Part shown: piece by piece, positions 6,359-37,452 of the stretch
Layout of the letters: each line of letters starts with the position of its first letter
How positions within the stretch are numbered: the first letter of the stretch is position 1
DNA from: Acetobacter malorum
GTDB lineage: Bacteria; Pseudomonadota; Alphaproteobacteria; Acetobacterales; Acetobacteraceae
Assembly (NCBI RefSeq): GCF_001580615.1
Contig: NZ_LHZC01000042.1
Location: forward strand, 1 to 64,000
DNA: 64,000 nucleotides
Direction: 5' to 3'
The notes under the pieces: generated by a model
What the model was told of the DNA's origin: nothing
What the model saw: the letters and a program-made list of their open reading frames with translations, nothing else
Databases searched by the model: none
Made by a program: the position numbers and the translations under genes

Positions 6359-7008
6359 GCCACTGGCACACGCGGTCCAAAGGCCAGCTCATGCACCGCA
6401 CGCCATGCTGGGTCGACAAAATTGACGATCAGCGTGCGGCGGGTGCCCTCAATAGGACGCTTAACAAAGCCATGCCATGTCTTGTCAGACGGAATGAACA
6501 AGACACCGGAATTGAACGCGCCAGACGCCCGCGTCACGGACTTGCCGTCCGGCGTCATGAGGTCCGTGCCCCATGCATGGTCTTTATCGTTTGTGGACAG
6601 AGAGATCAGCAGGGTGAGTCTCTTCGCACCAATATCGGTGTGCGGTTCCAGCCAGAAGCCATCTGTGTCCAGACACAGTTCCAGCCGCAGGGCGGAGTCG
6701 TCCAGCTCTGCACCACAAACATCCTTGAAGACTTTACGCGCGGCTTCGCTATCCAGCAGGTGCGCCATCCGGTCCAGCCGCGCATCCTGCGCGCGGGTTG
6801 CTGGATCCACAAAGACGCGGAACTTGTTACGGGTCTCACGACGGCCGCCGACATCACCCGCCCGCGCTTCATCACCCGGTTCCCATTCCAGCAAGGCGTC
6901 ACAGGCGTCTGGTTCCAGAACGGACTCCAGCATCCAGTGCGTAAACGGGACCTGTGCAGGCTGCATGGTAGCCAGCTTTTCTGTCAAAGCGGGGGCGTCA
7001 GAACGCAT
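6349..7008 (-). CDS. 2-oxoglutarate/Fe(II)-dependent oxygenase family protein
   Basis: The 219-residue protein has the double-stranded beta-helix metal site of 2OG-Fe(II) oxygenases: His123 and Asp125 in EPHTDIGAK, the distal His179 in KTWHGF, and an Arg near 190 (TRRTLIVNF) that would bind 2-oxoglutarate. It resembles small prolyl-hydroxylase-like or SM-20-like bacterial proteins, but the substrate is unknown. AAGGACAG is a good ribosome binding site. It precedes the ETF-QO gene by about 140 bases on the same strand, and no functional link to ETF is evident. Confidence 0.75.
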   Translation of the reverse strand: MRSDAPALTEKLATMQPAQVPFTHWMLESVLEPDACDALLEWEPGDEARAGDVGGRRETRNKFRVFVDPATRAQDARLDRMAHLLDSEAARKVFKDVCGAELDDSALRLELCLDTDGFWLEPHTDIGAKRLTLLISLSTNDKDHAWGTDLMTPDGKSVTRASGAFNSGVLFIPSDKTWHGFVKRPIEGTRRTLIVNFVDPAWRAVHELAFGPRVPVASA

Positions 7009-7158
7009 CTGTTCTGTCCTTCAGCTGTGATGCGGGTTCCTGCCCTTAAGAAGAATACCGTTCTTTTTTATGGCATCCGGGCGGGGAAAGTTCTCTCTCC
7101 ATGCGCCAAAACACGCGCACGATCAACTGATGCCTCAACGGGTAAAGCCCGTGAAGGT

Positions 7159-8538: not shown

Positions 8539-8542
8539 ACCA

Positions 8543-9382
8543 TTAGAACCGGTAAGCGATACCAGCGGAGACCACGGTCGGGTCCAGAGATTCATGCGCA
8601 CGGACACGCAGCGTTTCTGCAGGGTTCTGAGCCCAAGCATGCATACGCACAAACACCTGCTTGACGTCTGCGTTGAAGAACCAGTTGCCAACCAGCTGAT
8701 AGTCAAAGCCAGCGTTCACAGCCGGACCACCGGTAAAGCCGGAGTTCAGCTTGGTCAGGCCCAGCGGGCTGCCTGCGTTAGCGTGCATGCTGTGGAACCA
8801 CATTGCCGTAACACCCACACCCACATACGGGTTGAAGCGCTTATGCGGACGGAAATGCCAAGCGAAGGTCAGCGTGGGCGGCAGCACCCAGGCACTCCCG
8901 ACGTCCAGCTTGCGCGGGCCACCCAGAGACGGAACATCGCTGCCCAGAGCAGCCACTTCGTGACGGGTGCTGGTGGCAATCAGGTCAACAGAGATGTTGT
9001 CCGTCAGGAAGTATTCCAGCGTCAGCTCAGGCATCGCCTGGTTGGTGGTGGACAGGTGCGTGTTGCGCAGGGGGATGGTCGTGCCACCAGCATGCAGAGC
9101 CACGTTGCTATCACGGTCCTGCGGCAGAACGCCCACGCCGGACAGGCGGATCATGAAGTCACCCTTGCCCAGACCGATCTTGGTGCTGGCGCAGGTTTCA
9201 AAAATCCCGCAATGGCCGCCACCCGGACGCGGAGCAGCCGGAATTTTGCTCATGACCGGAGCATTCACATAGGTTGCGTTCGGGGATGCCGGAGCAACAA
9301 CCTGTGCCTGAGCGGCGGCCGTGCCGGAAATCGCAGCCACACCCGCCGCAAGGGCTGTAAATAAGGAACGAAGCTTGACCAT
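8543..9382 (-). CDS. ompW: OmpW family outer membrane protein
   Basis: The 279-residue protein has a clear signal peptide (about residues 1-27, ending AAAQAQ). A beta-barrel of the OmpW type follows, with the ending SAGIAYRF, an aromatic C-terminus used for outer-membrane insertion. OmpW proteins form narrow channels for small hydrophobic compounds and are often FNR-controlled. Here an FNR-box-like sequence lies about 75 bases upstream of the start, and hemN follows after 4 bases. It is somewhat longer than enteric OmpW because of an N-terminal extension of about 60 residues. Confidence 0.88.
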   Translation of the reverse strand: MVKLRSLFTALAAGVAAISGTAAAQAQVVAPASPNATYVNAPVMSKIPAAPRPGGGHCGIFETCASTKIGLGKGDFMIRLSGVGVLPQDRDSNVALHAGGTTIPLRNTHLSTTNQAMPELTLEYFLTDNISVDLIATSTRHEVAALGSDVPSLGGPRKLDVGSAWVLPPTLTFAWHFRPHKRFNPYVGVGVTAMWFHSMHANAGSPLGLTKLNSGFTGGPAVNAGFDYQLVGNWFFNADVKQVFVRMHAWAQNPAETLRVRAHESLDPTVVSAGIAYRF

Positions 9383-9451
9383 ACCTGTTACTCTTCCAAC
9401 TGCGCTGTAAGTTTATGAGACGGGAGAAATCACGCGCAGAGGTCGGTCACC

Positions 9452-9465
9452 ATGATTTAGATCAA
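9452..9465. promoter_or_regulatory. FNR-box-like site upstream of ompW-hemN
   Basis: ATGATTTAGATCAA matches the FNR consensus TTGAT-N4-ATCAA at nine of ten fixed positions. It lies 70-83 bases upstream of the ompW ATG, consistent with an activator site at a promoter just downstream. Binding by the adjacent FNR-type protein is inferred. Confidence 0.7.
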
Positions 9466-9574
9466 ACCCACACCATGATGGGTCGAAGAGTGTGTTATTT
9501 AAACCACAGCGCACAACACAACTCTGATATTCGTTTAAAACATCCTTGCGGGTAGAGATTTTCGAGAGCTGTCG

Positions 9575-9588
9575 TTGATTTATATCAA
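9575..9588. promoter_or_regulatory. Perfect FNR box upstream of the FNR-type gene
   Basis: TTGATTTATATCAA fits TTGAT-N4-ATCAA perfectly, and the palindrome extends one base further on each side. It lies about 100 to 140 bases upstream of the two possible starts of the regulator gene. Autoregulation is the natural reading, although it could also affect the divergent ompW. Confidence 0.82.
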
Positions 9589-9683
9589 CAATAACCTAAT
9601 ATTTACGAAAGATTTCCCTGACACAGGCTTTTCCGGATCCTCCTCGCATCCGCAAGAGTCGGCTTTGCCGGACCCATACCTTC

Positions 9684-10463
9684 ATGCCGCCTGCTCCCCA
9701 TTCACGGACACAGTCCATGCCTCTCAGGCGCAGGTTTACGCCTGAAGCCAGGACTGACGTGCATCGTTGTCTTGTCTGTGAAATTCGGGAACACAGCGTG
9801 TGCAACGGTATTGATGACACCGAGCTGGCCATTCTCGCACAAGCCTCAAAACGGCTGACACTGCCGCCCGGCACAGCGATGATTGAAGAAGGCACCCCCG
9901 CACTGTCCTTCTTCAACGTGACATCCGGGACAGTTAAACTCTTCAAATCCCTTCCGGATGGCCGCCGCCAGATTACAGGTTTTGCAGATGTCGGGCACTT
10001 TCTCGGTCTGACCACAGCCAAGACCTATTCCTTTGGGGCGGAGACAGTGGATACCGTGCAGGTCTGCCGTTTTCTGCGCCCTCAGCTGGAAACCTTGCTG
10101 ACGGATTACCCGCAGTTTGAACGCCGACTGCTGGATGAAGTAACGGACGAACTGGCGGAAGCACAGGAACAAATGCTCCTGCTGGGCCGCAAGACAGCAC
10201 GTGAGCGCGTCGCCAGTTTTCTGTTAAACCGCATGATACCGCCGGCCCCTGCCGGACAGGGCAAGACCGAAGGCTGTCTGGTCTCTCTCCCCATGACGCG
10301 GGTCGATATTGCGGATTATCTGGGCCTGACCATTGAAACCGTGAGCCGCACCATAAGCGCCCTCCGGCGCGAGCAGACCATTACCGGCACCGATAATCAC
10401 GGGATCCGGGTTCTCTCCGTCACCCGCCTGCGGGACCTCGCCTCAGGGCAGGATAGTCGCTAA
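9684..10463 (+). CDS. FNR/FnrN-type oxygen-sensing Crp-family regulator
   Basis: This Crp/Fnr-family regulator probably senses oxygen through a 4Fe-4S cluster. Cys29, Cys32 and Cys40 form C-x2-C-x7-C, the spacing of rhizobial FnrN proteins, and Cys128 is the expected central ligand. A cyclic-nucleotide-like beta-roll spans about 45-150. A C-terminal winged helix carries E218-x2-S221-R222 in IETVSRT, the FNR-type recognition residues that read TTGAT. Two matching boxes lie upstream. The start is uncertain: ATG 9684 or ATG 9717, both with weak ribosome binding sites. Its 3' end overlaps the convergent efflux gene by 21 bases. Confidence 0.9.
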   Translation: MPPAPHSRTQSMPLRRRFTPEARTDVHRCLVCEIREHSVCNGIDDTELAILAQASKRLTLPPGTAMIEEGTPALSFFNVTSGTVKLFKSLPDGRRQITGFADVGHFLGLTTAKTYSFGAETVDTVQVCRFLRPQLETLLTDYPQFERRLLDEVTDELAEAQEQMLLLGRKTARERVASFLLNRMIPPAPAGQGKTEGCLVSLPMTRVDIADYLGLTIETVSRTISALRREQTITGTDNHGIRVLSVTRLRDLASGQDSR

Positions 10464-11981
10464 CCCTTTATCCGGATGCCAGGACGGCGTGCGCGGCGCG
10501 TCTGGCTCCTTGCTGTTCCACCAGCCACCACCCAAAGCCTGAAATAGCGCAACCGTATCCGACAATCTGTCCGCTCTGGCCTGTGCCAGAGCCAGCTGGG
10601 CCTGAAGCTGGGTCTGCTGCGCCTGAAGCATCGCGACCTCACTCACATCTCCCAGCCGATACTGCGCCTGCGCAATATGCCAGCTCTCTGCGGCTGCGGT
10701 TGCAGCGGAGGCATTAGCGCCTAAGGCCGTAGCATCGGAGCGGATAGCAGTGAGCGTATCCGCCACATCCTGCAAAGCCGCGATAATGGTTGTGCGATAA
10801 TCTGCTGCCGCCTGATCATACTGTGCGCGGGCCGCATGCTCCTGATGCCGCAGCAGACCGCCATCAAACAGCGGCTGGGTAATCATGGCAGCAATTTCCC
10901 ACTGCCCGAATCCCGGAGAGGCCATCTGCGCGATGGACGCCGCAGCAAAACCCGGCGTTGCCCCAAGCTGCACATTGGGCAGACGGTTTGCGACTGCGAC
11001 GCCAACCTGCGCACAGGCGGCATGCCAGTTGGCCTGTGCCGTGCGGATATCCGGGCGCTGCTCAATCAGGCGCGCAGGCAGGCTGACCGGCAAATCAACC
11101 GGCAGGCTCAGACTCTCCAGCGTGAAGCTCGGCTCCGGCGCATCGGGCGCATCCCCCACCAGAGCCGCAATAAGGTGCTTTTGCTGCTCCAGTTGCTTTT
11201 GCAAGGGGGCCAGAGTGGCTTCGTTTTGCGCCAGAGAGGCACGCTGCATGGCTACATCATTGCGGGAAAACTGCCCGACCTGTTCCTGCCGTTCGGCCGA
11301 GGCCAGCAAGGTGCGCTGCAACGCTACAAGAGACTGCGTGGCCTCCAGCTGCGCATTGAGCGCTGCGTAATCAATCGCCGCCTGCACAACGGAAGAGGTG
11401 AGCGTCAGATAGACCGCTTCCAGCTGGTCTCGCTGGGCATCACGCAGGGCTTTTGCGGCTTCCACTCCACGCCGCACCCCGCCCCACAAATCCGGCACAT
11501 AGGAAATATTCAGCTGCGCCGTGTGCACGGTGTAAAGCCACGCGTTGCTGTTCGGCACTGGTGAGTATGTGCGGGAGGTCTTGTTGCGTGTCGGGTTAAA
11601 GCTGCCGGAAACAGACGGATACAGCGCGCTCTGCTGGGCCAGACGGTTTTCATTAGCGGCTGAAAGCGCGTCCCGCGCGGATTCCAGAGAGGGATTCTGG
11701 TCCAGCGCACGCCGCACCAGCCTGTCCAGATCTGGCGAATGGAACAGTGCCCACCATTGCGGCGGAATATCCTGCCCCGGGTGGAACACCTGCACCACGC
11801 TCTGCGGGCCGGCCGCGGCAGCTTCGGCTGAGCCAGCCACAGGCTGCGTGCTGCTGCCCTTCCCCGCCTGTCCATACTCGGTGGGGGCTGGCGGCGCGGG
11901 TTTTTTAAAGTCTGGCCCTACGGCGCACCCACTCAAAGCCAGAGCAGTAGCGGCCCAGAGCATCAGTTTGTTTGGCATCAT
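10443..11981 (-). CDS. RND efflux outer membrane lipoprotein, NodT family
   Basis: This is the outer-membrane channel of the tripartite efflux system encoded by the three overlapping genes here. A signal peptide ends in the lipobox ALSGC (Cys19), followed by VGPDFKKP. Two OEP repeats with long coiled-coil helices fill the 512 residues. It overlaps the RND pump gene by 4 bases (ATGA), so translation is probably coupled. It is the second NodT-type protein in the window. The other, at 382-1926, has no partner genes. Its 3' end overlaps the convergent FNR-type gene. Confidence 0.93.
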   Translation of the reverse strand: MMPNKLMLWAATALALSGCAVGPDFKKPAPPAPTEYGQAGKGSSTQPVAGSAEAAAAGPQSVVQVFHPGQDIPPQWWALFHSPDLDRLVRRALDQNPSLESARDALSAANENRLAQQSALYPSVSGSFNPTRNKTSRTYSPVPNSNAWLYTVHTAQLNISYVPDLWGGVRRGVEAAKALRDAQRDQLEAVYLTLTSSVVQAAIDYAALNAQLEATQSLVALQRTLLASAERQEQVGQFSRNDVAMQRASLAQNEATLAPLQKQLEQQKHLIAALVGDAPDAPEPSFTLESLSLPVDLPVSLPARLIEQRPDIRTAQANWHAACAQVGVAVANRLPNVQLGATPGFAAASIAQMASPGFGQWEIAAMITQPLFDGGLLRHQEHAARAQYDQAAADYRTTIIAALQDVADTLTAIRSDATALGANASAATAAAESWHIAQAQYRLGDVSEVAMLQAQQTQLQAQLALAQARADRLSDTVALFQALGGGWWNSKEPDAPRTPSWHPDKGLATILP

Positions 11982-14900
11982 GGCGCAGGCTCCCGTGCAG
12001 CTGCCCGGCGCTCACACCACGCTTCCAGCTCGTAATAGAATGTCGGCAGAATAAACAGCGTCAGAATCGTCGCGATCCCCAGACCGCCGACCACCACGGT
12101 CGCCAGACCGCGCTGCACGTCCGTACCAATGCCGGTTGCCATAGCGGCGGGCAGCATGCCCATGCTGGCGACGGTGGCTGTCATCAACACAGGGCGAAAG
12201 CGTTCCCCCGCCCCTTCCAGCACGGCATCATACAACGGCACACCCTGTGACCGATGCCGGTTGATGTTGGAAATCATGATGATCCCGTTCTGCACCGCCA
12301 CACCAAACAGCGCGATAAAACCAACGGCGGTCGCCACATTCAGGGTTTCCCCCCGGACCTGCAGCGCGACCAAACCACCCAGCAGGGCCAGCGGCACCAC
12401 AGCCAGAATCAGCACGGCCTGCCGCAGAACGCGGAATTCCGCAAACAGCAGAACCAGCATGACAATCAGCATGATACCCAGCGCCACACTCAGGCGCGCC
12501 TGTGCGCGTTGCTGCTGCTCAAACGCGCCAGCCCATTGCAGACGATACCGGCTGGTATCGAAATGCACCTGTTCGGCAATTTTCTTCTGCGCTTCCGCCA
12601 TATAGTCGGACAGGGGCCGCTTGCCGTTATCCACCCGCAGCGTGATCTGCCGTTCCGTCATTTCATGCGAGATTGTGCCTTCACCCGTTTTCAGGCTGAT
12701 TTGGGCAACCATCTCAAGCGGGATTTGCGCGCCATTGGCCGCCGTCAGCGGGAGATGCGCCAGAGAGCGCAAATTGCTGACCGTGGCCGGGGGCACGCGT
12801 ACCGTCATATTGTAGGTACGGTCTGCAATATAGATCTGGGACACCGGGCCATCGCCAATGGCGTTGCCCACCACGGCCATGATGTCCGCCACGGAAATAC
12901 CGTAACGGGCTGCCGCGGGCCGATCCGCCACAATGTTGAGTTCCGGAATTTCCGGCTCCTGAAAAACAGACGCTTCGGTCGTGCCCTTCACGGTTTTCAG
13001 AACATCGACAATCTGGTTACCAATCCGCCGGATTTCCCGTGCATCATTGCCATAAACGCGCAGGACCAGCGCGGAATGTGCGCCGCCGACCTGATCGTTC
13101 ATGCCATCGGCAATTGGCTGGCTGATGCCAAAATCAATACCCGGAATTTTCGCCAGACGCTCATGCAGTTTGGCGACAAACTGGGCCTTTGTCTCACCAT
13201 GCGGCCAGGTGTTGTACGGCTTGAGGCCTACTGGCACTTCGATGTGTGACGGCGTCCACGGGTCCGTGCCGGAATCATTCCGGCCTAACTGGGTTACGGC
13301 GTAAGAGGTTTCCGGAAACGTATAGATGGCGTGGCGCACTTCATCCGCCATGGCCCCGGCTTTCTCCAGTGAGAGGCCGGAGGGCAGCTGAACCTGGAGC
13401 CACAACGCGCCCTCATCCATTTCCGGCAGGAACTCACGCCCGGTATGCATGCCCAGCACGACCACCAGCACAAAAGCAATCACGGCACCAATATAGGCCA
13501 GAAGCGGACGGCGCATGGCATGGGCCAGACCGTCATGGTACAGGTGGTGCAGCTTTTCCAGCGGCTTGTTATGGAAAATCTTGTGCGGCTTACGCATGGC
13601 CAGAAAGGCAAGCGATGGCGTGAGCACAATAGCGCTGAGCAGCGCACCCAGCAGTGCAAAACTGACGGTAAAGGCCATAGGCCGGAACAGCCGCCCCTCT
13701 GCGCCTTCAAACGCAAAAAGCGGGCTGTAGGCGACAATAATCACTAGCGTGGAAAACACGATCGCCCGGCCGACATGTTTTGTCAGCCCTTCCACATCCT
13801 CCAGAGACATGGTGCGGCCCGGTTCCGCTTCCCGCAGGCGCAGGATGGATTCCGTCACCACAATCGCGCCGTCCACGATCACCCCGAAGTCAATCGCCCC
13901 GAGGGAGAACAGGTTGGCCGGCATACCGAGCAGACTCATGATGAGAAAGACCGTCGCCAGCGCCAGCGGAATGGTTACCGCCGCCACCAGCGCACTGCGC
14001 GGGCTGCCAAGGAAGAGGATGAGGATGACAAAAACCAGCCCCACCCCTTCCAGCACCGTGTGGGTAACTTTCTCCGTGGTGGCATTCACCAGATTGTCAC
14101 GGTCAATATAGGGCACAATCCGCACACCCTGCGGTTCCAGCTGCTTTTGCAGTTGCGCCACGCGGGCATGCAGCAGGTTCAGCACCTTCGAGGCGTTCTC
14201 GCCCGAGACCATGCTGACAATGCCCTCAATGGTATCCGGGTTTCCGTTTTTCCCCAGAATCCCTTCCCGCACCTGATGCCCAAGCTGCATCCGTCCCAGT
14301 TCCCGCAGGAAGACCGGGGTGCCGTCATGCTGGGTTACGGGGATATCGCCCATTTCCTTCAGCGAGTGGATCATGCCCATGCCGCGCACAATGTAGGACT
14401 GCTCGCCCCGCGCCACGCGGCCACCGCCAGCATTGATGCTGCTGTTGGTAATGGCCGTCAAAACATCATTCACCCCCACGTGGAAGCGGGAGAGCGCGGC
14501 CGGGTCCAGAAGCAACTGATATTCCCGCGTAAAGCCGCCGAAGTTGTTGATGGCCGCCACGCCCTGCACTTTTGTCAGAGCCGGCACCACAATCCAGCGC
14601 TGAATTTCAGAGAGCTGCATCAGATTCTGGCGGTCTGATTCCAGCGTATAGCGGTAAATTTCACCCGATGGGCTGGTGACAGGCCCAAGGCTGGCCGTCA
14701 CCCCCGGCGGCAGCGTGACCTGCGCCAGTTGCTCCGTCACACGCTGGCGGGCGGCGTAAACATTCACGCCATCCCGAAAAATCAGATTGATGAGCGAGAG
14801 GCCAAACGTGCTGCTGGAACGGCTGTTGGCCAGCCCCGGCGTGGCCGCAAGCTGGCGCTCAAGCGGAATGGTGATCAGCTGTTCTACTTCCTCCGCAGCC

Positions 14901-15067
14901 AGCCCTGAGCTTTGGGTGGTGACCTGAACGGACACGGCCCCAAGGTCGGGATAGGCTTCAACCGGAAGATCTTTCCACGCCCAGCCGCCCCACAGAGCCA
15001 GCACAGCCATCGCCACAAAAACAATACGGCGCTCCCGCAGGCAGGCCGCAATAATCCGCTCAATCAT
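11978..15067 (-). CDS. Heavy-metal-type RND efflux pump (CzcA/CusA family)
   Basis: This 1029-residue inner-membrane proton-driven pump has the RND layout of 12 membrane segments and two large periplasmic loops. TM4 reads DFGVIVDGAIVVTES near residues 393-407, so Asp393, Asp399 and Glu406 match the proton-relay acids of CzcA. This places it with heavy-metal (HME) rather than drug (HAE) pumps. The usual VEN ending is TES here. Divalent cations such as Zn, Co, Cd or Ni are likely substrates, but the metal cannot be fixed from sequence. It overlaps the adaptor gene by 8 bases and the channel gene by 4. Confidence 0.9.
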   Translation of the reverse strand: MIERIIAACLRERRIVFVAMAVLALWGGWAWKDLPVEAYPDLGAVSVQVTTQSSGLAAEEVEQLITIPLERQLAATPGLANSRSSSTFGLSLINLIFRDGVNVYAARQRVTEQLAQVTLPPGVTASLGPVTSPSGEIYRYTLESDRQNLMQLSEIQRWIVVPALTKVQGVAAINNFGGFTREYQLLLDPAALSRFHVGVNDVLTAITNSSINAGGGRVARGEQSYIVRGMGMIHSLKEMGDIPVTQHDGTPVFLRELGRMQLGHQVREGILGKNGNPDTIEGIVSMVSGENASKVLNLLHARVAQLQKQLEPQGVRIVPYIDRDNLVNATTEKVTHTVLEGVGLVFVILILFLGSPRSALVAAVTIPLALATVFLIMSLLGMPANLFSLGAIDFGVIVDGAIVVTESILRLREAEPGRTMSLEDVEGLTKHVGRAIVFSTLVIIVAYSPLFAFEGAEGRLFRPMAFTVSFALLGALLSAIVLTPSLAFLAMRKPHKIFHNKPLEKLHHLYHDGLAHAMRRPLLAYIGAVIAFVLVVVLGMHTGREFLPEMDEGALWLQVQLPSGLSLEKAGAMADEVRHAIYTFPETSYAVTQLGRNDSGTDPWTPSHIEVPVGLKPYNTWPHGETKAQFVAKLHERLAKIPGIDFGISQPIADGMNDQVGGAHSALVLRVYGNDAREIRRIGNQIVDVLKTVKGTTEASVFQEPEIPELNIVADRPAAARYGISVADIMAVVGNAIGDGPVSQIYIADRTYNMTVRVPPATVSNLRSLAHLPLTAANGAQIPLEMVAQISLKTGEGTISHEMTERQITLRVDNGKRPLSDYMAEAQKKIAEQVHFDTSRYRLQWAGAFEQQQRAQARLSVALGIMLIVMLVLLFAEFRVLRQAVLILAVVPLALLGGLVALQVRGETLNVATAVGFIALFGVAVQNGIIMISNINRHRSQGVPLYDAVLEGAGERFRPVLMTATVASMGMLPAAMATGIGTDVQRGLATVVVGGLGIATILTLFILPTFYYELEAWCERRAAAREPAP

Positions 15068-16202
15068 CGTTCAGCAAAACCCCACCGCGCGTCACGATGC
15101 GGTCTCCGGCACTCAGGCCGCTCAGAACCCGTGTGTCTTCACCTTCGTCGTAGGAAATGCCGACCTTGCGCCGCTTGAACGTCCAGGGCGCGGTTTCCAC
15201 AAACACGGTCACGTTGTCATTATTCATCAGCAGGGCCGACTGCGGCACCATCAGGCCCGGTGGCTGCTTGAGCTGAATATTAACCGTTGCGAACATGTTG
15301 GGATGCAAATCTTCATCCGGGTTGGGCAGTGGGATCATGGCACGCAGGCGCCGGGTTTCTGGCCGCAAATCCGGCTCCACCGTGGCGATTTCCCCATACA
15401 GCACGACCCCGTCCCGCGCGGGCAGCGTGAGGGAAACGGACTGGCCGATATGGATCTGGTCCACATCGGCTTCCGGCACATCCGCTACGGCCCAGATTTC
15501 TGAGAGGTCTTCCACGCTCAGCAAGGGGGCCGTAATGTCGGTCACGTTCTGGCCGGGAGCCATGCTGACAGCAGACACCACCCCATCCACCGGGGAGCGC
15601 AGGATCAGTTTGCCGCCTGCCACCGCGTTATCATCAAACGAGGCCAGACGATCCTGCGCGCGGCGTTCCTCCGCCTGTGCCTGCACCAACGCAGCACGGG
15701 CGGCCTCAACATCCCGCGTCGCAGCACCACCGGCCTGCTTGACCTGCTGGGCGCGCGCCATCGCAGCCTGCGCCATCACCAGCCCGGCGCGTGCTTTTTC
15801 TTCATCCGTAGTGGCTTGCGCCGTATCCCCGGCAAGCAGCGTCGCCAGTGGCTGCCCGTGCTTTACATGCTGACCCGGCACGACATTCAACGCCATGATG
15901 CGCCCGGTGACGGGTGCCAGAATGGGCACCTGCCGGGCAGGTTCCGTTACAATGGCACCGGGGACAGACAGGGTATCCTTCGGGACAACAACCTGTACGG
16001 CCTCAACCTCCAGCCGCTTCCGCAGGGGCGAGCCCTCCGGCACGGTCCGGCTGCCATCCTGCCCTACGATAAGCGGTGTTTTCTCCGCCCATGCCGGGGC
16101 ATTTGCCAGACACAGGACAGCACAAAGAAGGCCAAACACGCCACGACCCGCACGCAGTTGCGTGGCAAACACCCGTCCGGCTCGCATCACGCAACCCTGC
16201 AC
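15060..16202 (-). CDS. RND efflux periplasmic adaptor subunit (CzcB/CusB-like)
   Basis: The membrane-fusion protein joins the inner-membrane pump to the outer-membrane channel. The 380-residue protein has a signal region ending LANAPAWA, then a barrel-sandwich (lipoyl-like) half PVTGRIMALNVVPGQHVKHG, an alpha-helical hairpin (about 125-190), the second barrel half and a beta-barrel domain. No His-rich metal-binding N-terminal extension is visible. It is the first gene of the efflux operon. The start may be ATG 16187 (six residues in) rather than 16202. Confidence 0.92.
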   Translation of the reverse strand: MQGCVMRAGRVFATQLRAGRGVFGLLCAVLCLANAPAWAEKTPLIVGQDGSRTVPEGSPLRKRLEVEAVQVVVPKDTLSVPGAIVTEPARQVPILAPVTGRIMALNVVPGQHVKHGQPLATLLAGDTAQATTDEEKARAGLVMAQAAMARAQQVKQAGGAATRDVEAARAALVQAQAEERRAQDRLASFDDNAVAGGKLILRSPVDGVVSAVSMAPGQNVTDITAPLLSVEDLSEIWAVADVPEADVDQIHIGQSVSLTLPARDGVVLYGEIATVEPDLRPETRRLRAMIPLPNPDEDLHPNMFATVNIQLKQPPGLMVPQSALLMNNDNVTVFVETAPWTFKRRKVGISYDEGEDTRVLSGLSAGDRIVTRGGVLLNDD

Positions 16203-16545
16203 GGCAGATCAGAAAAATGAGTGAGTGTCATCGGGCGGATCGCTCCCACTTTATGAATTACGCAGGAGATACCCGCTCAGGACCTAAGCAAACAAGCCCC
16301 GAGGCTGGAGCATAGCTTCATTGCATTTGACGCATTAAGCTGATCTCGCTGAAAATTTCATCCATAAATATCAAATGTAATTAAAATTTTACCCTGTTTA
16401 CTGAGCTTCAAAGGTCGTCCACGGCCAGTTTTTACACTTTTAAGAAATAATACCAGCCTGACGACATAAAAAACGCTGGCCCTTTGCAGAGCCAGCGTTT
16501 TGCGAGACCGAACTTTATGCCCGGTTTTAGACCATGACCATTGTC
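16203..16545. other. Intergenic region upstream of the metal efflux operon
   Basis: About 340 bases between the divergently placed efflux operon promoter and the end of the protease gene. The stretch 16320-16470 is AT-rich and probably holds the efflux promoter. I cannot define an operator, and no metal-responsive regulator gene is adjacent. The terminator of the protease gene lies at 16470-16501. Confidence 0.5.
16470..16501 (-). terminator. Terminator after the DegP-type protease gene
   Basis: AAAACGCTGGC and GCCAGCGTTTT are perfect 11-base arms around a 10-base loop. In the minus direction the stem is followed by a T run, which gives a typical rho-independent terminator 45 bases past the protease stop. 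Confidence 0.85.
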
Positions 16546-18129
16546 TTACTGGTCGTCGTCATCCCCACCGTTAGAAGAAGATGAGTCAGAGCCATCTCCC
16601 GTGCCATCCGGGGAAATGGCGATGAACAGAGACTGCCCATCCCGCAGCACACGGAGAAGAACCGGCTTTTTAGCCGCCAGCGCCCCACGCACAGCCGTAA
16701 CTGCGGCCCGAGGGGAATCGACGGTCTGGTTGCTGACGGACTGGATCACATCACCGGGGCGAATACCGGCCTGATCCGCCGGGGAACCGGGCTGCACATC
16801 ATTCACCACCACGCCATGCACATCACTGCCCAAACCAAGCTGGCGACGGATATCGCCACTCAGCGGCGTGAGGGACACACCCAGATGCTGGCCGGAGGAC
16901 GCGGTGCCCTCAATGCCACCATCGTTGGAGGCTTTGGCGAGGTTGCCGATCTTGACCGTCAGCGTCTGCGGTTTCCCGCCACGCAGGTAGCCAATTTTAG
17001 CGTCTGTGCCCGGAGCAACGGAAGCAACACGCACTGCCAGATCATGCGGAGAGGCGACTTTCTGACCATTGAAATCGGTCACAACGTCTTCCGCCTTCAG
17101 GCCAGCCTTTTCTGCCGGGCTGTCCGGGCTGGTGCTGGCCACCAGCGCACCGGCAGGCGGCGCGCCGGGAGCTGGCGTCGGCATGTTCAGAGCTTTTGCC
17201 ATAGCCGGGGAAATGACCTGAGCATTCACGCCCAGATACCCACGGACCACGTGGCCGGTCTTGCGCAGCTGGTCTGTCACGCTGCGCACGGTGTCAGACG
17301 GAATAGCAAAGCCGATACCAATGGACCCACCACCGGAGGGAGAGAGAATGGCGGTATTAACGCCCACCACTTTGCCATCCTGCGTGAACAGCGGGCCACC
17401 GGAGTTACCGCGATTGATCGGCGCATCAATCTGAATGAAGTTGTCGTACGGCCCTTCGTTAATGTCACGCCCACGGGCGGACACGATCCCGGCGGTGACG
17501 GTACCACCCAGACCATATGGGTTGCCTACGGCGACAACCCATTCACCGGGCTGCACATCGTCAGATTCGCCCAGTTCAATAAAGGGCAGCTTCTGAGTAG
17601 ACGTGACTTTCAGAAGGGCCAGATCCGTCTTGCCATCACGGCCAATAATCTTGGCGGGCAGCGTGGTGCCATCATCCAGCGTGACGGTGACCTTGGTAGC
17701 CCCTTTCACCACATGGTTGTTGGTCACCACATACCCATCGGCAGAGATCAGAAAGCCAGACCCGCGGGCTTCAATCTGCTGGCGGGACTGCTGGGGCGCC
17801 ATCTGGAACGGGAAGGGAAAAGGAAAGGGCATGCCGCCCATACCGCCCATTCCCCCCATGCCGCCGCCTTCACCCTCAACAGCATCAGCCTTGATCATGG
17901 AGGTAATGGAAACAACGGCAGGTTTGACCTGTTTGACCAGATTCACAAAGTTTGGAAGCGTCTGGACAGGGCTGCTCGGCTTGATGGCTCCGGCATCCTC
18001 AGCATAGGCAGCGTGGAGGCCAACCGGCCCTGTGCCCATCGTCCCTACAAAGGCTGCACCAGCCAGAAGGGCCAGAAGTGTCTTGCGGCTAGTCCGCCCG
18101 AAAAACTTGGATACAGATTTTTCCGACAT
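16546..18129 (-). CDS. DegP/HtrA-type periplasmic serine protease (Do family)
   Basis: Do-family proteases degrade or refold damaged envelope proteins. The 527-residue protein has a signal sequence and the trypsin-like triad His139 (TNNHVV), Asp169 (KTDLALL) and Ser243 (GNSGGP). Two PDZ domains follow, each with a carboxylate-binding loop. Between the signal and protease domain there is an odd low-complexity run of Gly-Gly-Met repeats followed by Pro-Phe repeats (about residues 88-108). The C-terminus is Ser/Asp-rich and acidic. I choose ATG 18129 over the GTG one codon upstream. A terminator follows. Confidence 0.93.
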   Translation of the reverse strand: MSEKSVSKFFGRTSRKTLLALLAGAAFVGTMGTGPVGLHAAYAEDAGAIKPSSPVQTLPNFVNLVKQVKPAVVSITSMIKADAVEGEGGGMGGMGGMGGMPFPFPFPFQMAPQQSRQQIEARGSGFLISADGYVVTNNHVVKGATKVTVTLDDGTTLPAKIIGRDGKTDLALLKVTSTQKLPFIELGESDDVQPGEWVVAVGNPYGLGGTVTAGIVSARGRDINEGPYDNFIQIDAPINRGNSGGPLFTQDGKVVGVNTAILSPSGGGSIGIGFAIPSDTVRSVTDQLRKTGHVVRGYLGVNAQVISPAMAKALNMPTPAPGAPPAGALVASTSPDSPAEKAGLKAEDVVTDFNGQKVASPHDLAVRVASVAPGTDAKIGYLRGGKPQTLTVKIGNLAKASNDGGIEGTASSGQHLGVSLTPLSGDIRRQLGLGSDVHGVVVNDVQPGSPADQAGIRPGDVIQSVSNQTVDSPRAAVTAVRGALAAKKPVLLRVLRDGQSLFIAISPDGTGDGSDSSSSNGGDDDDQ

Positions 18130-28324: not shown

Positions 28325-30805
<2,481 letters not shown>

Positions 30806-30877: not shown

Positions 30878-31573
30878 TCAGATACCGGGCAGTTCGTTCA
30901 CGGTGACAACACGCCAGCCCTCATCCAGCCTTTCCAGAATAGTCAGGGAAAGGTTCTGGATGGAGAAATGCAGGGCGGTCTCCGGGTGAACACGCAGCGC
31001 ATGCGCCAGAGCGGCGCGAATAGCCCCGCCGTGGCTAACGGCGACGATATTCTGCCCTTCATAGGCTTCGGCCAGACGGTCCAGCGTCACGCCTACGCGC
31101 CCGCATACATCCAGCATACTCTCCCCACCCGGCGGGCATTCCGTGGCCGAGATGGACCAGAAAGGATGCGGGGCCAGACGCAGATGCTGCGGTAATTCCT
31201 GATGCGGCATGTTGTGCCACTCACCGAGGTTCTGCTCGATTAGAGCAGGTTCCACATCCATCGGCACCGGACCGTAACCCGCTTCCTGAATAGCCTCAGC
31301 AGTGCGCCGTGTGCGGGAAAGGGGGCTGACAAGCCAATGCGCCTCACGCGGCAGACGAGCGGCCAAAGCTTCATACATCGGCCGTTGCGCAATCAGGCTA
31401 TCCGGGCAGAGGGGGACATCCAGCGCCCCATAAAGCCGGAGGCGGGCATTCTGCTCGACCAGCGCATGGCGAATCAGCCAGAACCGCGTAATGCCGGGCG
31501 CAAGTTGCGGCGTGTCGAGAAAATTACCCTGATTGATCTGCTGGGCGGCGGGACGTGTGAGGCTGACGGTCAT
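30878..31573 (-). CDS. Histidine phosphatase family protein
   Basis: The protein (231 residues from ATG 31573) belongs to the phosphoglycerate-mutase-like superfamily. It has catalytic His36 in RHALVEQ (the usual RHG is RHA here) and the second His in AVSHGGAIRA. Relatives include alpha-ribazole phosphatase and sugar phosphatases, so the substrate is unknown. I prefer ATG 31573 to the longer frame because the large PLP-fold gene ends at 31590. It follows that gene by 16 bases on the same strand, so the two probably act together. Confidence 0.8.
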   Translation of the reverse strand: MTVSLTRPAAQQINQGNFLDTPQLAPGITRFWLIRHALVEQNARLRLYGALDVPLCPDSLIAQRPMYEALAARLPREAHWLVSPLSRTRRTAEAIQEAGYGPVPMDVEPALIEQNLGEWHNMPHQELPQHLRLAPHPFWSISATECPPGGESMLDVCGRVGVTLDRLAEAYEGQNIVAVSHGGAIRAALAHALRVHPETALHFSIQNLSLTILERLDEGWRVVTVNELPGI

Positions 31574-31589: not shown

Positions 31590-33806
31590 TCAGGGACCGC
31601 CCAACGCAAGAGCAGAAATGGAACGTCGCAGTGCGTCCGCTTTCTGCTCGTCTGTTACGCCTTCTTTCACAGGACGTTCTGACCAGTGAGACTCGTCCGC
31701 CGTGTCCTCCGGTTCCCAGCGCGGCGCATAGGAGGGCAGCGGGTCTGCCTGCGCAATGGTCTTCCAATGCATCAGAATCAGACTAATTTTTTCCAGAACC
31801 CGGAGCGCATCCTGAATTTCCCGCGTCATGCGGGCGGTAGCGTCCAGACCTTCATGAGACGGTTCGCCCGACACAAGGCGTGCCCCCGCGGATAATCTGA
31901 GGGCTCCTACAAGCCCTCCGGCGGCCTGCGCATACGGAATTGGGACAGGCTGGCCGATATGGCAGAGCAGCGCGGCAAGCGCCTTTTTTTCTTGTGGGAC
32001 GTAGGGCGAAAGATCGGCATTGAGCCACTGATAGAGCTTGCGACATCGTTCCAGATCTAGTGGGGGTAGGCCCTCTGTTCTCTCAGGAGCCCTTACCAGA
32101 AAGGACAGAATTGTTTGCTGACGGTCCCAGTCATGCGGCAAAGCATCCCGCTGCGGAGCGGGCTGAGGCAGAAACGCAAGGTCGGTATTGGCTTCGATTC
32201 CTCGCCTGACGGCAGCCAGAAAACCCTGCAACCGTTCCGCCACAACGACAGAGGGAATCGCCCCGAGAGCAGCCATTTCAGCCTGTGCTGCTCGCCAGCG
32301 CAGCAGCAATCCGTGATTAAATCCGGACGCCAGACCACGGCAAGCGGGGCTGGCCGGCCATTCACACTGGTTGGCGTAGGCCGCGAGGCCTTCAGGCAAT
32401 AGCCCCTGATCCAAGCGGGCCTTCCAGCAGTCCGGCAGCAGGAGCGCCCCGCAGAACGGAGGGCCGGTGAAAAATTTGGACCCCGTCACCATCACCGCCC
32501 AGCCACGGGCCAGATAGGCCTGAACACGCTCCGGCATCAGCCGGGCCTGACAGGCATCCACCACCACATCCAGCTGCCCCGGATATTGGTCACACAGTGC
32601 TTCAAGAGCTTTCAGGTTGGGTGCCAGGAGGCCAGTTTTGGACAGATCCAGCACATGCAGCAGCACGCGTCGCCCTTTTACCAACTGGTCCTGAATGTCT
32701 TTCTGACACGCGGCCGTCACCTCGGCCTCTGGCCGCAACTGGCCCTCGGCATCCCGCAAAGGCAGATCAACACAGATCGTATCATCCGGGAATCCGGCTA
32801 CAAGCTCCCCTTTACAGACGGACGCCCCCAATGCTGTTTCCTGCGCAAAATGCCAGCCGTGGGAGGCCAGCGGCACACCGCTGCCCGTTTCTTCCGGTGC
32901 TGTCAGAACAGTTGTAACCGGCTGCCCCGGCAAGGTGGACAGCGCCAGCACAGCCAGCGCCGCATCCGTGCCCGAAGAGGCCAGCAAGACATGATCCTCC
33001 CCCGGCAGCCCAAACCAGCCCGCCAGAAAATGGCGGACATCCAGAGCCAGCGCCTGCAAGGCCTGAGGGGCCTTACCCTCAAGAACAGCGCGAGCCAGCT
33101 TCACCCGTGCCAGTTCTCCGCCGGTAAAGCCTCGCTCTGAGAGAGAAGAGGCTGTGGAAGACGCAAAGGTTACCGCCCAGGGGCGAGGCCGGTGCGAACA
33201 ACCGTAATGATTGAGGCCCGTGCGCACATCAATATTCAGCCGGGCATCACCCCCTTCCGCCATCAGGGCTTCAACGGGGCCGATCAGCGGCCAGGCCTGC
33301 ACAAGCCACGCGTAAAGCTCATCCCAAAGAGCGCTATCGTCCGCTCCTTTACCCGGAGCACTAACAAGGGGGCGCAAAGCCGCAAAAAGCTGAGGCAAAT
33401 CTTCTCGGATGGGTGGGTGTGCGCTGGCAAGCGTCCGGACCCATCGCTCGGGAGCGGGTAAATCCGCTGGCGCATCCAGCATCCAGAACCGGGCTGCCGT
33501 TCTGGCGGCGGAGAAGGAAATTTTTAGCGCCTGAAGGAGGTCCGGCTCCTGCGCGTCTGACAAAACCGCCAGTTCCAGCGCATGACGCAAATGAAACGCC
33601 ACGACCCGACGTTCTCCCAGACACGGCGCCCCCAGAACAGTCTGCCCCCCAGGGCGGACATGGAAAGGATGGGCCACGGCCGGGTCCAGCATAATCCGGC
33701 ATTGTGTTGCCAGCAGCCGCAGCTCCGGGCGGTCCAGCACATGCAGCAAGGTTTCCGTCAGGTTTCTGGCAAACATTTTTCCGCTTTCAACTCCCTGACG
33801 AACCAT
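31590..33806 (-). CDS. Large PLP-dependent (fold type I, class V-like) protein of unknown function
   Basis: The protein is 738 residues from ATG 33806. An upstream in-frame start would run into rmlB. The core resembles aminotransferase class V/cysteine desulfurase folds: SSGTDAAL (277-284) for phosphate binding, Asp417 in VVVDACQ for the PLP ring nitrogen, and the probable Schiff-base Lys444 in TGSKFF. About 190 extra N-terminal residues and about 170 C-terminal residues have no family I know. The reaction is unknown. The histidine phosphatase gene follows closely. The start could also be ATG 33776. Confidence 0.7.
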   Translation of the reverse strand: MVRQGVESGKMFARNLTETLLHVLDRPELRLLATQCRIMLDPAVAHPFHVRPGGQTVLGAPCLGERRVVAFHLRHALELAVLSDAQEPDLLQALKISFSAARTAARFWMLDAPADLPAPERWVRTLASAHPPIREDLPQLFAALRPLVSAPGKGADDSALWDELYAWLVQAWPLIGPVEALMAEGGDARLNIDVRTGLNHYGCSHRPRPWAVTFASSTASSLSERGFTGGELARVKLARAVLEGKAPQALQALALDVRHFLAGWFGLPGEDHVLLASSGTDAALAVLALSTLPGQPVTTVLTAPEETGSGVPLASHGWHFAQETALGASVCKGELVAGFPDDTICVDLPLRDAEGQLRPEAEVTAACQKDIQDQLVKGRRVLLHVLDLSKTGLLAPNLKALEALCDQYPGQLDVVVDACQARLMPERVQAYLARGWAVMVTGSKFFTGPPFCGALLLPDCWKARLDQGLLPEGLAAYANQCEWPASPACRGLASGFNHGLLLRWRAAQAEMAALGAIPSVVVAERLQGFLAAVRRGIEANTDLAFLPQPAPQRDALPHDWDRQQTILSFLVRAPERTEGLPPLDLERCRKLYQWLNADLSPYVPQEKKALAALLCHIGQPVPIPYAQAAGGLVGALRLSAGARLVSGEPSHEGLDATARMTREIQDALRVLEKISLILMHWKTIAQADPLPSYAPRWEPEDTADESHWSERPVKEGVTDEQKADALRRSISALALGGP

Positions 33807-33960
33807 GCTCTCTGACTGCCTATAGGCTTGTTTTTCATACAGCCAAGCATAAGAAAATCGCAAATCTGCCAAGATTGCTGGCGAAGACTGTACTTCTGAG
33901 CTATGCCCAAAGACTGGTGATTTTAATCGTTTGTTTCGGTCCACAGAATACGGAATACCA

Positions 33961-35019
33961 ATGCGTATCTTATTGACAGGCGGGTGCGGATTTATCGGAT
34001 CCGCAGTGATCCGCCATATTATTCGGGACACCAGTCATTCTGTCCTGAATGTTGATTGCATGACTTATGCGGCCTCTGAAGAAACCGTGGAAGACGCAGC
34101 CGCCAGCGGGCGCTACGAATTTGCACGGGCCAATATCGTCAATGGCAGCGAACTCAGTCGCCTGTTTGAAACGTTCCGTCCGCAGGCGGTCATGCATCTG
34201 GCAGCAGAAAGCCATGTGGACCGTTCCATTGATGGGCCCGGCGTGTTCATTCAGACCAACGTAGTCGGCACCTATTCCCTGCTGGAAGCAGCCCGCAAAT
34301 ATTGGCTGACGCTAGACAAGGCTGACCGCGCCGCCTTCCGCTTCCATCATATCTCCACTGATGAAGTTTTCGGGGCGCTGGAACCGAACGATCCGCCCTT
34401 TACCGAAACCACCCCGTATGACCCGCGCAGCCCGTATTCTGCCAGCAAGGCGTCGTCCGACCATCTGGTGCGCGCCTGGTACCATACCTATGGCCTGCCC
34501 ACGTTTGTCACCAACACGACCAACAATTACGGCATCTGGCACTTCCCGGAAAAACTGATCCCGCTCATCACCATCAACGCTATCGAAGGCAAGGATCTGC
34601 CTGTGTATGGCGATGGCAAGAACGTGCGCGACTGGCTGTTTGTGGAAGACCACGCCGAAGCACTGGTCAAGGCTGTTGAAACAGGCGTGCCGGGTGAGAC
34701 TTACGCCATTGGTGCCCGCCAGCCGCGCACCAATCTTCAGGTAGTGGAAACCATCTGTAATGTTCTGGACGAACTGGTTCCGGACCCGGCCGGCCCGCGC
34801 AGCCGTCTGATCCGTTTTGTGACAGACCGGCCCGGCCATGATTTCCGTTACGAAATTGACCCCTCCCACGCTGAAAAAGCGCTGGACTGGAAAGCAAAGC
34901 ATACTTTTGAAACCGGCATTCGCCGCACTGTTCAATGGTATCTGGACAACCGCGACTGGTGGGAAGGCATCCGCGCCCGCCGTTACACAGGCAACCGACT
35001 GGGAAGCACCGTAGAATGA
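33961..35019 (+). CDS. rmlB: dTDP-glucose 4,6-dehydratase
   Basis: This is the second step of dTDP-L-rhamnose synthesis: NAD-dependent conversion of dTDP-glucose to the 4-keto-6-deoxy sugar. The 352-residue SDR protein has the nucleotide motif TGGCGFIGS at residues 6-14, the dehydratase signature HISTDEVFG, and [11 protein letters not shown] with the catalytic Tyr and Lys. I start at ATG 33961, where the family begins. The stop overlaps rmlA by 4 bases (ATGA). It is the first gene of the rmlBACD operon. Confidence 0.97.
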
Positions 35020-35927
35020 CACAGAAACCTGCAATTCAGACAAAAATGAAGGGTATTCTGCTGGCCGGTGGTTCCGGAACGCGCCTGTACCCCATGACGC
35101 TGGCGGCCAGCAAACAGCTTCTGCCGGTCTATGACAAACCGATGGTCTATTATCCGCTTTCCACGCTGATGCTGGCGGGTATTCGGGATATCATGATCAT
35201 CAGCACCCCGAACGATCTTCCGCAGTTCAAACGCCTTCTGGGCGATGGTTCCCAGTTTGGGGTGACCTTCGAATATCGTGCCCAGCCCTCTCCTGACGGC
35301 ATTCCGCAGGCGTTCCTGATTGCGGAAGACTGGCTGGACAACTCCCCCTGTGCGCTCGCACTGGGTGACAACCTGATTTTTGCCGATCATCTGAGTGCTG
35401 CCCTGCAGTCCGCTGCCGTGCGCCCGACTGGTGCAACCGTGTTTGCGTATCAGGTCCGTGACCCGGAACGCTATGGGGTAGTGTCTTTTGATGAAACAGG
35501 CCGTGCTCTGAGCATTGTTGAAAAGCCGAAAGAGCCCGTGTCGAACTGGGCTGTGACCGGCCTGTATTTCTATGACAACCGCGTGCTGGACTTTGCAAAA
35601 CGCGTGAAGCCCTCCCCACGCGGTGAGCTGGAAATTACAGACCTCAACCGGTTCTATCTGGAAGAAGGCAGCCTGCATGTGGACCGTCTGGGCCGTGGCT
35701 GTGCCTGGCTGGATGCTGGCATTCCGGACAGCCTGATGGAAGCCGGGCAGTTTGTGCACACCATTCAGGCGCGTCAGGGCATGCTGGTTGGCTCTCCGGC
35801 GGAAGTCGCCTACCGGCTTGGCTTCATTGATGCGGACCAGCTCCGCGCGCACGCCTCCCGCATGGGAAAAACAGAACTGGGGCGGCTCCTGATGCAGGTT
35901 GCCAATACGGTTCAGCCAACAAGCTGA
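35016..35927 (+). CDS. rmlA: Glucose-1-phosphate thymidylyltransferase
   Basis: RmlA makes dTDP-glucose from glucose-1-phosphate and dTTP, the entry to the rhamnose pathway. The 303-residue protein has the nucleotidyltransferase signature [13 protein letters not shown], the [11 protein letters not shown] motif and ALGDNLIF. The start ATG 35016 overlaps the rmlB stop, and ATG 35046 is another candidate with about ten fewer residues. Feedback inhibition by dTDP-rhamnose is a known property of the family. Confidence 0.97.
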
Positions 35928-35973
35928 ACCCCCTCTTCTTTTTCTGACCATTTGCAGACAGGAGCTTTCTTTC

Positions 35974-36531
35974 ATGAAAGTCGAACGCCTTGCCATTGAG
36001 GACGTGATTCTGGTCACGCCCCCGCGCTTTCAGGACAACCGTGGGTTTTTCTCCGAAACCTACAATATTGACCGGATGCGGGACGCAGGCATTACCGAAC
36101 CCTTCGTGCAGGATAACCAGAGCCTTTCTCGCCAAAAGGGCGTGATCCGCGGCCTGCACTGCCAGCTGGCGCCTTACGCGCAAGGCAAGCTGGTCCGATG
36201 CACCAAAGGCGCAATCTGGGATGTGGCTGTGGATGCCCGGACCGGCTCCCCCACCTATGGCAAATGGGTTGCGGCTGAACTGTCTGAAGAAAATTGGTCA
36301 CAGCTGTGGATTCCGCCCGGTTTCCTGCATGGCTTCTGCACACTGACAGAAGATGCGGAAGTGCAGTACAAATGCACTGGCCTGTATAACAAAGCCTCTG
36401 AGCGCGCCGTGATCTGGAATAGCAAAGAGCTGGCCATTGACTGGCCCATTAAGACAGAAGACGCCGTTCTTTCTGAAAAAGATCTGGAAGCCCCGGAATT
36501 TTCTGCCGCCAAAGGCTGGTTTCATCTGTAA
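35974..36531 (+). CDS. rmlC: dTDP-4-dehydrorhamnose 3,5-epimerase
   Basis: RmlC epimerises C3 and C5 of the dTDP-4-keto-6-deoxy-glucose intermediate. The 185-residue cupin has PRFQDNRGFFSETYN near the N-terminus and IRGLHCQ containing the catalytic His. Later it has WIPPGFLHGF, typical of the family. The start at ATG 35974 has CAGGAG upstream. It lies 46 bases after rmlA in the rmlBACD operon. Confidence 0.97.
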   Translation: MKVERLAIEDVILVTPPRFQDNRGFFSETYNIDRMRDAGITEPFVQDNQSLSRQKGVIRGLHCQLAPYAQGKLVRCTKGAIWDVAVDARTGSPTYGKWVAAELSEENWSQLWIPPGFLHGFCTLTEDAEVQYKCTGLYNKASERAVIWNSKELAIDWPIKTEDAVLSEKDLEAPEFSAAKGWFHL

Positions 36532-36546
36532 TCAGGAGCAGACCTC

Positions 36547-37452
36547 ATGAGTCGTCTTGCACAAAACGGTGGTCCCATTCTGGTTACGGGTGGCAAAGGC
36601 CAGCTGGCAACCTCTCTGGTTAATCTGGGTGGCCCGCGCATTCGCTGCGTTGGCCGGCCTGACTTTGACTTCGACCAGCCCGAAACCCTTGCTGCCACAC
36701 TGGATGCCATCAAGCCGGTCGCCGTGGTGAATGCCGCGGCCTGGACGGCGGTTGACCTTGCGGAAACTGAGGCCGAAGGGGCTGCCCGCGCCAATGCCAC
36801 CGGGCCGGAAGAACTGGCCCGCCTGTGTGCCCAGCGCGGTATTCCACTGATCCAGGTCTCCACGGACTATGTGTTCTCTGGAGACAAAGGCTCGCCGTAT
36901 GTGGAGACAGACCCGGTTTCACCCGAGACTGTCTATGGCCGCACCAAGGCGGACGGTGAGAGCAAGACGCTGGCCGCCAACCCCAAAACCATCGTGCTGC
37001 GCACGTCATGGGTTTACTCAGCACATGGGAAAAACTTTGTGCGCACCATGCTCAATGCCGGCGCTAAAAACCCGGCTCTGAAAGTGGTTGGGGATCAGAA
37101 AGGCAATCCGACCAGTTCAGATGATCTGGCTGAGGCAATCCTCTCCATTCTCGCCGTTGTCGAAAAAGACGGCTGGAAAGATGCGTTCGCTGGCATTTAC
37201 CATGCCTGCGGCACGGGAGAGACAACCTGGCACGGTCTGGCTGTTACAGCCCTGCAGGATGCGGCAACCCACGGCCAGAAAATGCCGGAAGTGACTGCCA
37301 TCCGCACGGAAGACTGGCCGACCCCCGCAAAGCGTCCGGCTGATTCCCGTATGGACAACAGCAAACTGACGCACGTTTTCGGCGTTACAATGCCTGCATG
37401 GCAGGACAGTGTGCGGAAAACGGTTGATCAGATTTTTGCACAGTCTGCGTAA
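36547..37452 (+). CDS. rmlD: dTDP-4-dehydrorhamnose reductase
   Basis: RmlD reduces dTDP-4-keto-L-rhamnose to dTDP-L-rhamnose with NAD(P)H. The 301-residue SDR protein has GGKGQLATSL near the N-terminus, VSTDYVFSGDKGSPY, and the catalytic YGRTKADGE with Tyr and Lys. CAGGAG precedes the ATG. It is the fourth gene of the operon, followed by the family 2 glycosyltransferase. The rmlB, A, C and D products together supply activated rhamnose for surface polysaccharide. Confidence 0.97.
   Translation: MSRLAQNGGPILVTGGKGQLATSLVNLGGPRIRCVGRPDFDFDQPETLAATLDAIKPVAVVNAAAWTAVDLAETEAEGAARANATGPEELARLCAQRGIPLIQVSTDYVFSGDKGSPYVETDPVSPETVYGRTKADGESKTLAANPKTIVLRTSWVYSAHGKNFVRTMLNAGAKNPALKVVGDQKGNPTSSDDLAEAILSILAVVEKDGWKDAFAGIYHACGTGETTWHGLAVTALQDAATHGQKMPEVTAIRTEDWPTPAKRPADSRMDNSKLTHVFGVTMPAWQDSVRKTVDQIFAQSA

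Follow-up and report, generated by a model that had tools for sequence, protein, structure and literature searches.

The minus strand of the window (the whole stretch of DNA analyzed here, 64,000 nucleotides of an Acetobacter malorum contig) carries a gene for a large PLP-fold protein, and this locus raises the question of what the protein does and which gene products it works with. The initial annotation had described an ORF of 738 residues at 31590-33806, which was confirmed from the ATG that it used. A later start is likelier, because the upstream ATG is common only to loci L002 and L003, and L004-L007 have no ATG near the start other than that of the second Met (33776), from which the protein has 728 aa. 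Residue numbers below count from the 728-aa start, and equal the earlier ones minus 10. The protein and its unnamed family are referred to as PLPX, and the two forms are as follows:

31590..33776, minus strand: 728-aa form of PLPX, a PLP protein with a class V fold that belongs to an unnamed family, read from the conserved Met
31590..33806, minus strand: long form of PLPX via the upstream ATG, 738 aa

Sequence searches placed the protein in no characterised family, as had been proposed. The window protein (P0001) gave Pfam noise only, with LPD39 as the best hit (E 0.18), and no match at E<=1 in the NCBIfam and PDB sequence searches. None of 12 PLPX members (alignment A1) has a Pfam family below E 0.1, and PF00266 (Aminotran_5) gave no match at E<=1 for P0001 or for any of these 12. 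Profiles built from 12 and from 28 members found no solved relative in the PDB, the best E values being 1.3 and 0.19, respectively.

The class V-like PLP core that had been suggested is borne out by the AlphaFold model of PLPX (pLDDT 89.8 and pTM 0.89, from a 56-sequence alignment; the last ~40 residues have low model confidence) and by its structural matches. Lys444, Asp417, and SSGTDAAL are present as the initial annotation described them. The core and its residues are located as follows:

31761..33197, minus strand: class V PLP domain, comprising the large and the C-terminal small domain, residues ~194-672, matching C-DES 1elq
32964..32975, minus strand: SGTD motif, Ser268-Asp271, invariant in A1; in the wider alignment A5 SGT is invariant and the Asp variable
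32556..32558, minus strand: Asp407 (previously Asp417), the expected pyridine-nitrogen partner, aligned with the Asp of SufS VDGAQ
32475..32477, minus strand: Lys434 (previously Lys444), the expected Schiff-base lysine, aligned with the Lys of SufS SGHK

In the VIA comparison, residues ~194-672 of the predicted model matched C-DES 1elq with Z 23.5 and rmsd 3.5 over 356 aligned residues at 15% identity, and the 50 entries listed matched with Z 21.5-23.5 over ~340-375 residues. Since the structural alignments extend as far as about residue 672 of the 728, the ~170 residues that had been counted as extra after the core are mostly the ordinary C-terminal small domain of class V proteins. One reading of this fold is that PLPX performs known class V biochemistry, for example that of C-S or sulfoxide lyases, and has diverged too far for the profiles. 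It is consistent with the cystine lyase C-DES as the best VIA match and with the high rank of entries named 'carbon sulfoxide lyase' (17-18% identity). However, the desulfurases NifS/SufS, AGT, and PhnW score within about 2 Z units of C-DES, and the ranking thus has no discriminating power. Foldseek ranks the matches differently, with tyrosine and aromatic decarboxylases first, and the structural neighbors of PLPX span lyases, desulfurases, aminotransferases, and decarboxylases. We consider a diverged enzyme with known class V chemistry rather unlikely.

The residues expected to serve PLP chemistry are strongly conserved. In an hhalign comparison with E. coli SufS, VDACQ (Asp407, Gln410) pairs with VDGAQ and TGSK (Lys434) pairs with SGHK; this alignment is a motif check only, because its overall probability is 1.6%, and it stops short of the loop before the C-terminal Arg on which desulfurases bear their catalytic Cys. 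SGT, Asp407, Gln410, Lys434, and a C-terminal Arg, which we take to be the substrate-carboxylate Arg of class V, are invariant in 28 diverse members (A5), down to ~26% identity. Such invariance argues against PLPX being a degenerate or non-catalytic class V protein with a regulatory or scaffold role, a reading with which the lack of a PF00266 match at E<=1 would agree and which we regard as the least probable of all, with hardly any weight.

The part before the core, which had been described as about 190 residues of unplaced kind, is indeed a separate domain:

33243..33776, minus strand: N-terminal domain, residues 1-178 of the 728-aa form, a separate confident fold (pLDDT 91.7 when modeled alone)

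Foldseek found no match to this domain at E<=0.001, with zinc metallopeptidases frequent in the weak list. The top entry of VIA-align was the HExxH domain of ChlB (8s5f; Z 7.3, 138 aligned residues; the next entry had Z 6.0), which is a weak match because best Z values of 7-8 are usual for models without a clear match. Arg64 and Glu68 are invariant in the 11 rows of alignment A8, where HExxH is absent, and in alignment A10 Glu68 is invariant and Arg64 nearly so; we infer that the two residues occupy the places of the two His of HExxH. At E<=1, none of 55 PLPX members matched TIGR04267 (alphaKG-HExxH), hhalign of the domain against the same family gave a probability <1%, and TIGR04267 was found in one of 32 PLPX-bearing genomes or records, there on a different contig. 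The domain was therefore rejected as a true HExxH domain, as the sequence profile and profile-profile tests both failed. The faintly zincin- or HExxH-like shape of the model, with the metal motif absent, is a lead only.

A PLPX relative is present in 35 of the 37 searched genomes of the window's genus (its own included), the best pieces being 42-100% identical. The nearest named relatives, at 80-93% identity, belong to Acetobacter species including cerevisiae, malorum, persici, orleanensis, and farinalis. Within the genus, the gene is split into two or three pieces in G002, G003, G005, and G010, and contains one in-frame TAG in G023 and G026; these broken genes could be large insertions, pseudogenes, or assembly errors. 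A scan of GTDB contigs confirmed 342 places encoding a relative; the best 80 of them, mainly from acetic acid bacteria, were kept and make up, together with the window, a set of 81 loci. PLPX was detected in 57 of 200 Acetobacteraceae genomes drawn, where diverged members may be missed because a single-protein query was used, and in at least 25 of 398 genomes drawn from the phylum (profile A1, two candidates scored per genome). A relative also occurs in 33 plasmid records, all from Rhizobium, Sinorhizobium, or Neorhizobium. Outside Acetobacteraceae, 24 loci were compared, comprising L125-L144 (20 of the 23 non-family genomes of the phylum draw) and the plasmid loci L021-L024. Most of these 24 members are without the N-terminal domain and their ORFs are mostly ~440-590 aa; the domain is present in two genomes of genus g225.

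The gene that follows PLPX in the window, reported by the initial annotation as lying 16 bases downstream on the same strand, was confirmed as a histidine phosphatase:

30878..31573, minus strand: histidine phosphatase, branch 1, CobC-like, with a His_Phos_1 match, 16 bases from PLPX

Its match to Pfam His_Phos_1 (PF00300) has E 3.7e-45 and 154.4 bits (cut-off 21.7), and its best NCBIfam model is alpha-ribazole phosphatase CobC (TIGR03162), at 107.7 bits under the cut-off of 162.9. It had been suggested that the two proteins work as a unit and could make or process a phosphorylated amino compound. The neighborhood comparison confirms the adjacency but does not support the unit. The phosphatase gene comes immediately after PLPX, in the same orientation, in 78 of 81 loci (75 identified by clustering, and L053, L094, and L099 by tblastn), and one of the three misses, L104, ends with the contig, L075 and L089 being without the gene. 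On the other hand, none of the 24 loci outside Acetobacteraceae yielded the phosphatase. Among the 200 Acetobacteraceae genomes the phosphatase occurs in 174 (E<=1e-20), and its frequency is much the same whether PLPX is present (51 of 57) or absent (123 of 143; hand count). Where both are present, only 27 of the 51 cases are adjacent, with 18 on another contig and one ~57 kb off (hand count; five placements unlisted). Because of the genome tallies, the phosphatase was rejected as a dedicated PLPX partner; the enzyme is widespread in the family and neighbors PLPX in a single clade, without being a PLPX marker, and we hold the proposed unit to be very unlikely. In G061, a genome without PLPX, the phosphatase gene is divergent from a dTDP-glucose dehydratase gene (L164, 4444-6301). 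The window has the same layout with PLPX inserted, which would fit a gain or loss of PLPX at this place.

As for the other surroundings, an rfbB-rfbA-rfbC-rfbD-like dTDP-rhamnose operon, recognized by eye, is located at 33931-37452 on the plus strand, divergent from PLPX, and its first gene is found at the same place in 42 of the 81 loci. A trehalase-like ORF (28325-30805, plus strand; by eye) has a (Pro-Ala)n tract, which holds another frame open as a poly-Leu ORF (28572-29003). Genes of the FtsK, RluA, RsmD, TadA, DegP, ParA/B, and FolD types, seen by eye near PLPX in the acetic acid clade, were set aside as housekeeping-like.

Attention thereby shifts from the phosphatase to likelier partners, namely a PLP decarboxylase and, outside the acetic acid clade, an ATP-grasp-type ligase. 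The window's genome (G000) encodes a group II PLP decarboxylase in trans, at C55:14711-16171 (PF00282, E 5.8e-61). The subfamily, delimited at >=530 bits with the next scores <=310 and at most seven candidates scored per genome, was found in 70 of the 200 Acetobacteraceae genomes: in 54 of the 57 with PLPX against 16 of the 143 without it (Fisher 1.8e-30, kinship ignored). Counted by genus, the figures are 30 of 32 against 10 of 70 (5e-15, kinship again ignored). No PLPX was found in the 4-16 kb around the decarboxylase of the 16 decarboxylase-only genomes, and in the best 80 scan loci the flanks retrieved contain neither decarboxylase nor ligase. Among solved structures, those closest to the decarboxylase are tryptophan, DOPA, and tyrosine decarboxylases, which hints that it may act on an aromatic substrate. 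Against this hint, the best NCBIfam model of one member is 2,4-diaminobutyrate decarboxylase, at 179 of 900 bits and thus far under the cut-off.

Outside Acetobacteraceae, PLPX, the PF00282 decarboxylase, and an ATP-grasp-like ligase form a contiguous trio in 13 of the 24 loci, with Rhizobium tumorigenes as the named case and with three gene orders. Another ATP-grasp-type ligase is present near PLPX in six of the 24 (L133-L138), for which one representative per kind was profile-tested and the others were assigned by clustering. The arrangements are as follows:

L125, L127: ligase-PLPX-decarboxylase
L126, L129-L132: PLPX-ligase-decarboxylase
L128, L139-L141, L143, L144: decarboxylase-ligase-PLPX
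L133: ATPgrasp_ST gene
L134, L135: decarboxylase and a cyanophycin-synthetase-like protein
L136-L138: divergent D-Ala-D-Ala-ligase-like gene

An NRPS/PKS is encoded directly upstream of PLPX in two further loci of the 24 (L022 and L023), and L198, outside this set, is a third case of PLPX after NRPS/PKS. L142 begins at a contig end, and no ligase, decarboxylase, or NRPS/PKS partner was seen beside PLPX in L024. In L021 (Neorhizobium; 6837-18077), a D-aminopeptidase, a D-alanine aminotransferase, and a peptide transporter are encoded beside PLPX, and this relative is perhaps catabolic in role. The NRPS/PKS gene of L022 and L023, from Rhizobium jaguaris and Sinorhizobium meliloti plasmids, is giant, with PLPX behind it at ~9000-10500; a phosphopantetheinyl transferase is found near PLPX in both loci, and a SagB-family dehydrogenase also in L023.

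Two members of the trio ligase gave matches under the curated cut-offs to RimK-like (E 0.0065-0.07), GSH-S_ATP (E 0.0072), and TPR_20 (E 0.0021) families, with 16.2 bits for GSH-S_ATP (cut-off 23) and 15.9 bits for the RimK family (cut-off 143.4). The ligase profile A3 finds a solved RimK-type ligase at E 0.00036, and the annotations of its relatives name tetratricopeptide-repeat or RimK-family proteins. In Acetobacteraceae, the ligase does not clearly track PLPX, being found in 21 of 57 genomes with PLPX and 32 of 143 without it (p 0.05), a tally that leaves out six weak short hits (E 1e-4 to 1e-3), of which three came from genomes with PLPX. The window's genome lacks the ligase, though 23 of 41 genomes of the genus have it. 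PLPX adjoins the decarboxylase in the Acetobacteraceae loci L170 and L171 and the ligase in L172, and neither is beside it in L173-L176. A gene next to PLPX in L174 was considered as an ATP-grasp protein and rejected, as it matches no NCBIfam model and its product looks like a membrane protein.

Some of these loci suggest a more specific role, in which PLPX, the decarboxylase, and the ligase would be a cassette making a substituent that is placed on hook or filament proteins of the flagellum, or on the glycans of these proteins, with the TPR-like part of the ligase recognizing the flagellar protein. The trio lies in a flagellar hook/filament locus in two genera, and the decarboxylase-ligase pair does so in a third. 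In the five genomes of g134 (L126, L129-L132), FlgE-, FlgK-, and FlgL-type genes are followed by a gene for a 260-aa protein (no Pfam match, glycosyltransferase-like by eye), PLPX, the ligase, the decarboxylase, FlbT, and flagellin, the last gene being reached at least partly in all five. L141, from a different family and an unrelated genus, has flagellin and FliD upstream of decarboxylase-ligase-PLPX, and L205, an Acetobacteraceae locus without PLPX, has FlgE-, FlgK-, and FlgL-type genes and then decarboxylase-ligase. Of seven genomes inspected in the window's genus, three have the ligase beside FliF (L155), beside a chemotaxis receptor (L151), or ~2.3 kb from FliM (L152); L153, L154, and L157 have a glycosyltransferase neighbor of the ligase in common.

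However, 12 flagellar queries, which could miss remote homologues, gave no match in the seven other trio loci (L125, L127, L128, L139, L140, L143, and L144). By eye, no flagellar gene is beside the window's PLPX, and the ligase is missing from that genome. Komagataeibacter, a genus not known to be motile, retains PLPX according to the GTDB contig scan. The flagellar cassette is thus a promising lead in some lineages, but for that of the window it is unproven; we judge it unlikely, while placing it first among the alternatives. A broader version is improbable to about the same degree as the diverged class V enzyme: a widespread cassette, composed of a TPR/ATP-grasp-like ligase and two PLP enzymes, would make an amino-acid-derived substituent and amide-link it to flagellar proteins or glycans, and acetic acid bacteria would keep both PLP enzymes, one fused to the pseudo-HExxH domain, for a related surface or small-molecule modification.

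The explanation that we prefer, tentatively and at somewhat short of an even chance for family and pathway taken together, is that PLPX represents an undescribed family of fold-type-I PLP enzymes with a class V shape, and that these enzymes serve an amino-acid pathway in which amides are formed. PLPX would most likely transform an alpha-amino acid by elimination, transamination, or epimerisation, and together with the group II PLP decarboxylase it would supply an amino-acid-derived unit. In most other bacteria with PLPX, an NRPS or an ATP-grasp-type ligase would then join this unit into an amide. PLPX of acetic acid bacteria has an extra N-terminal domain, with the decarboxylase encoded elsewhere in the genome, and the phosphatase would be a neighbor with its own general job. 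The family, the predicted fold, the conserved PLP residues, and the genomic partners are what the data show, whereas the action on an alpha-amino acid, the order of the steps, and the amide product are what we infer. Literature searches, with most subscription journals outside their scope, found no paper for the PLPX-decarboxylase-ligase trio, for flagellin with ATP-grasp, or for acetic acid bacteria with class V aminotransferase. PLPX is encoded in almost every genome of the genus that was searched, on plasmids of Rhizobiaceae, and in further Pseudomonadota, and the members tested gave no match in Pfam or NCBIfam. Its ties to the decarboxylase, to ATP-grasp-type ligases, and to some flagellar filament loci turn a 'hypothetical protein' into a testable pathway.

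Compared with known systems, PLPX resembles the class V enzymes C-DES, SufS, AGT, and PhnW in fold, in the expected Schiff-base Lys, and in the Asp and Gln of VDxxQ. It differs from them in its identity of 10-17%, in having no PF00266 match, in the additional N-terminal domain, and in the family's own signatures (GGDxR...NxYG, SGT, SKT, TGSKF, and NxGLLLRW). The N-terminal domain recalls the alpha-ketoglutarate HExxH oxygenase domain (ChlB, TIGR04267) by a weak structural match only; unlike that domain, it has RxxxE and gave neither a profile nor a profile-profile match. The neighboring phosphatase is like branch 1 histidine phosphatases and CobC in its His_Phos_1 domain and best NCBIfam model, whereas it scores under the TIGR03162 cut-off and is not dedicated to PLPX. 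Finally, the arrangement is reminiscent of peptide pathways that combine a PLP enzyme with ATP-grasp ligases, such as those to phosphonoalamides (PMC11867202). The present genes may follow a similar logic, with the PLP enzyme providing an amino acid for the ligases to build into peptides. They differ in that a group II decarboxylase accompanies the PLP enzyme and the ligase.
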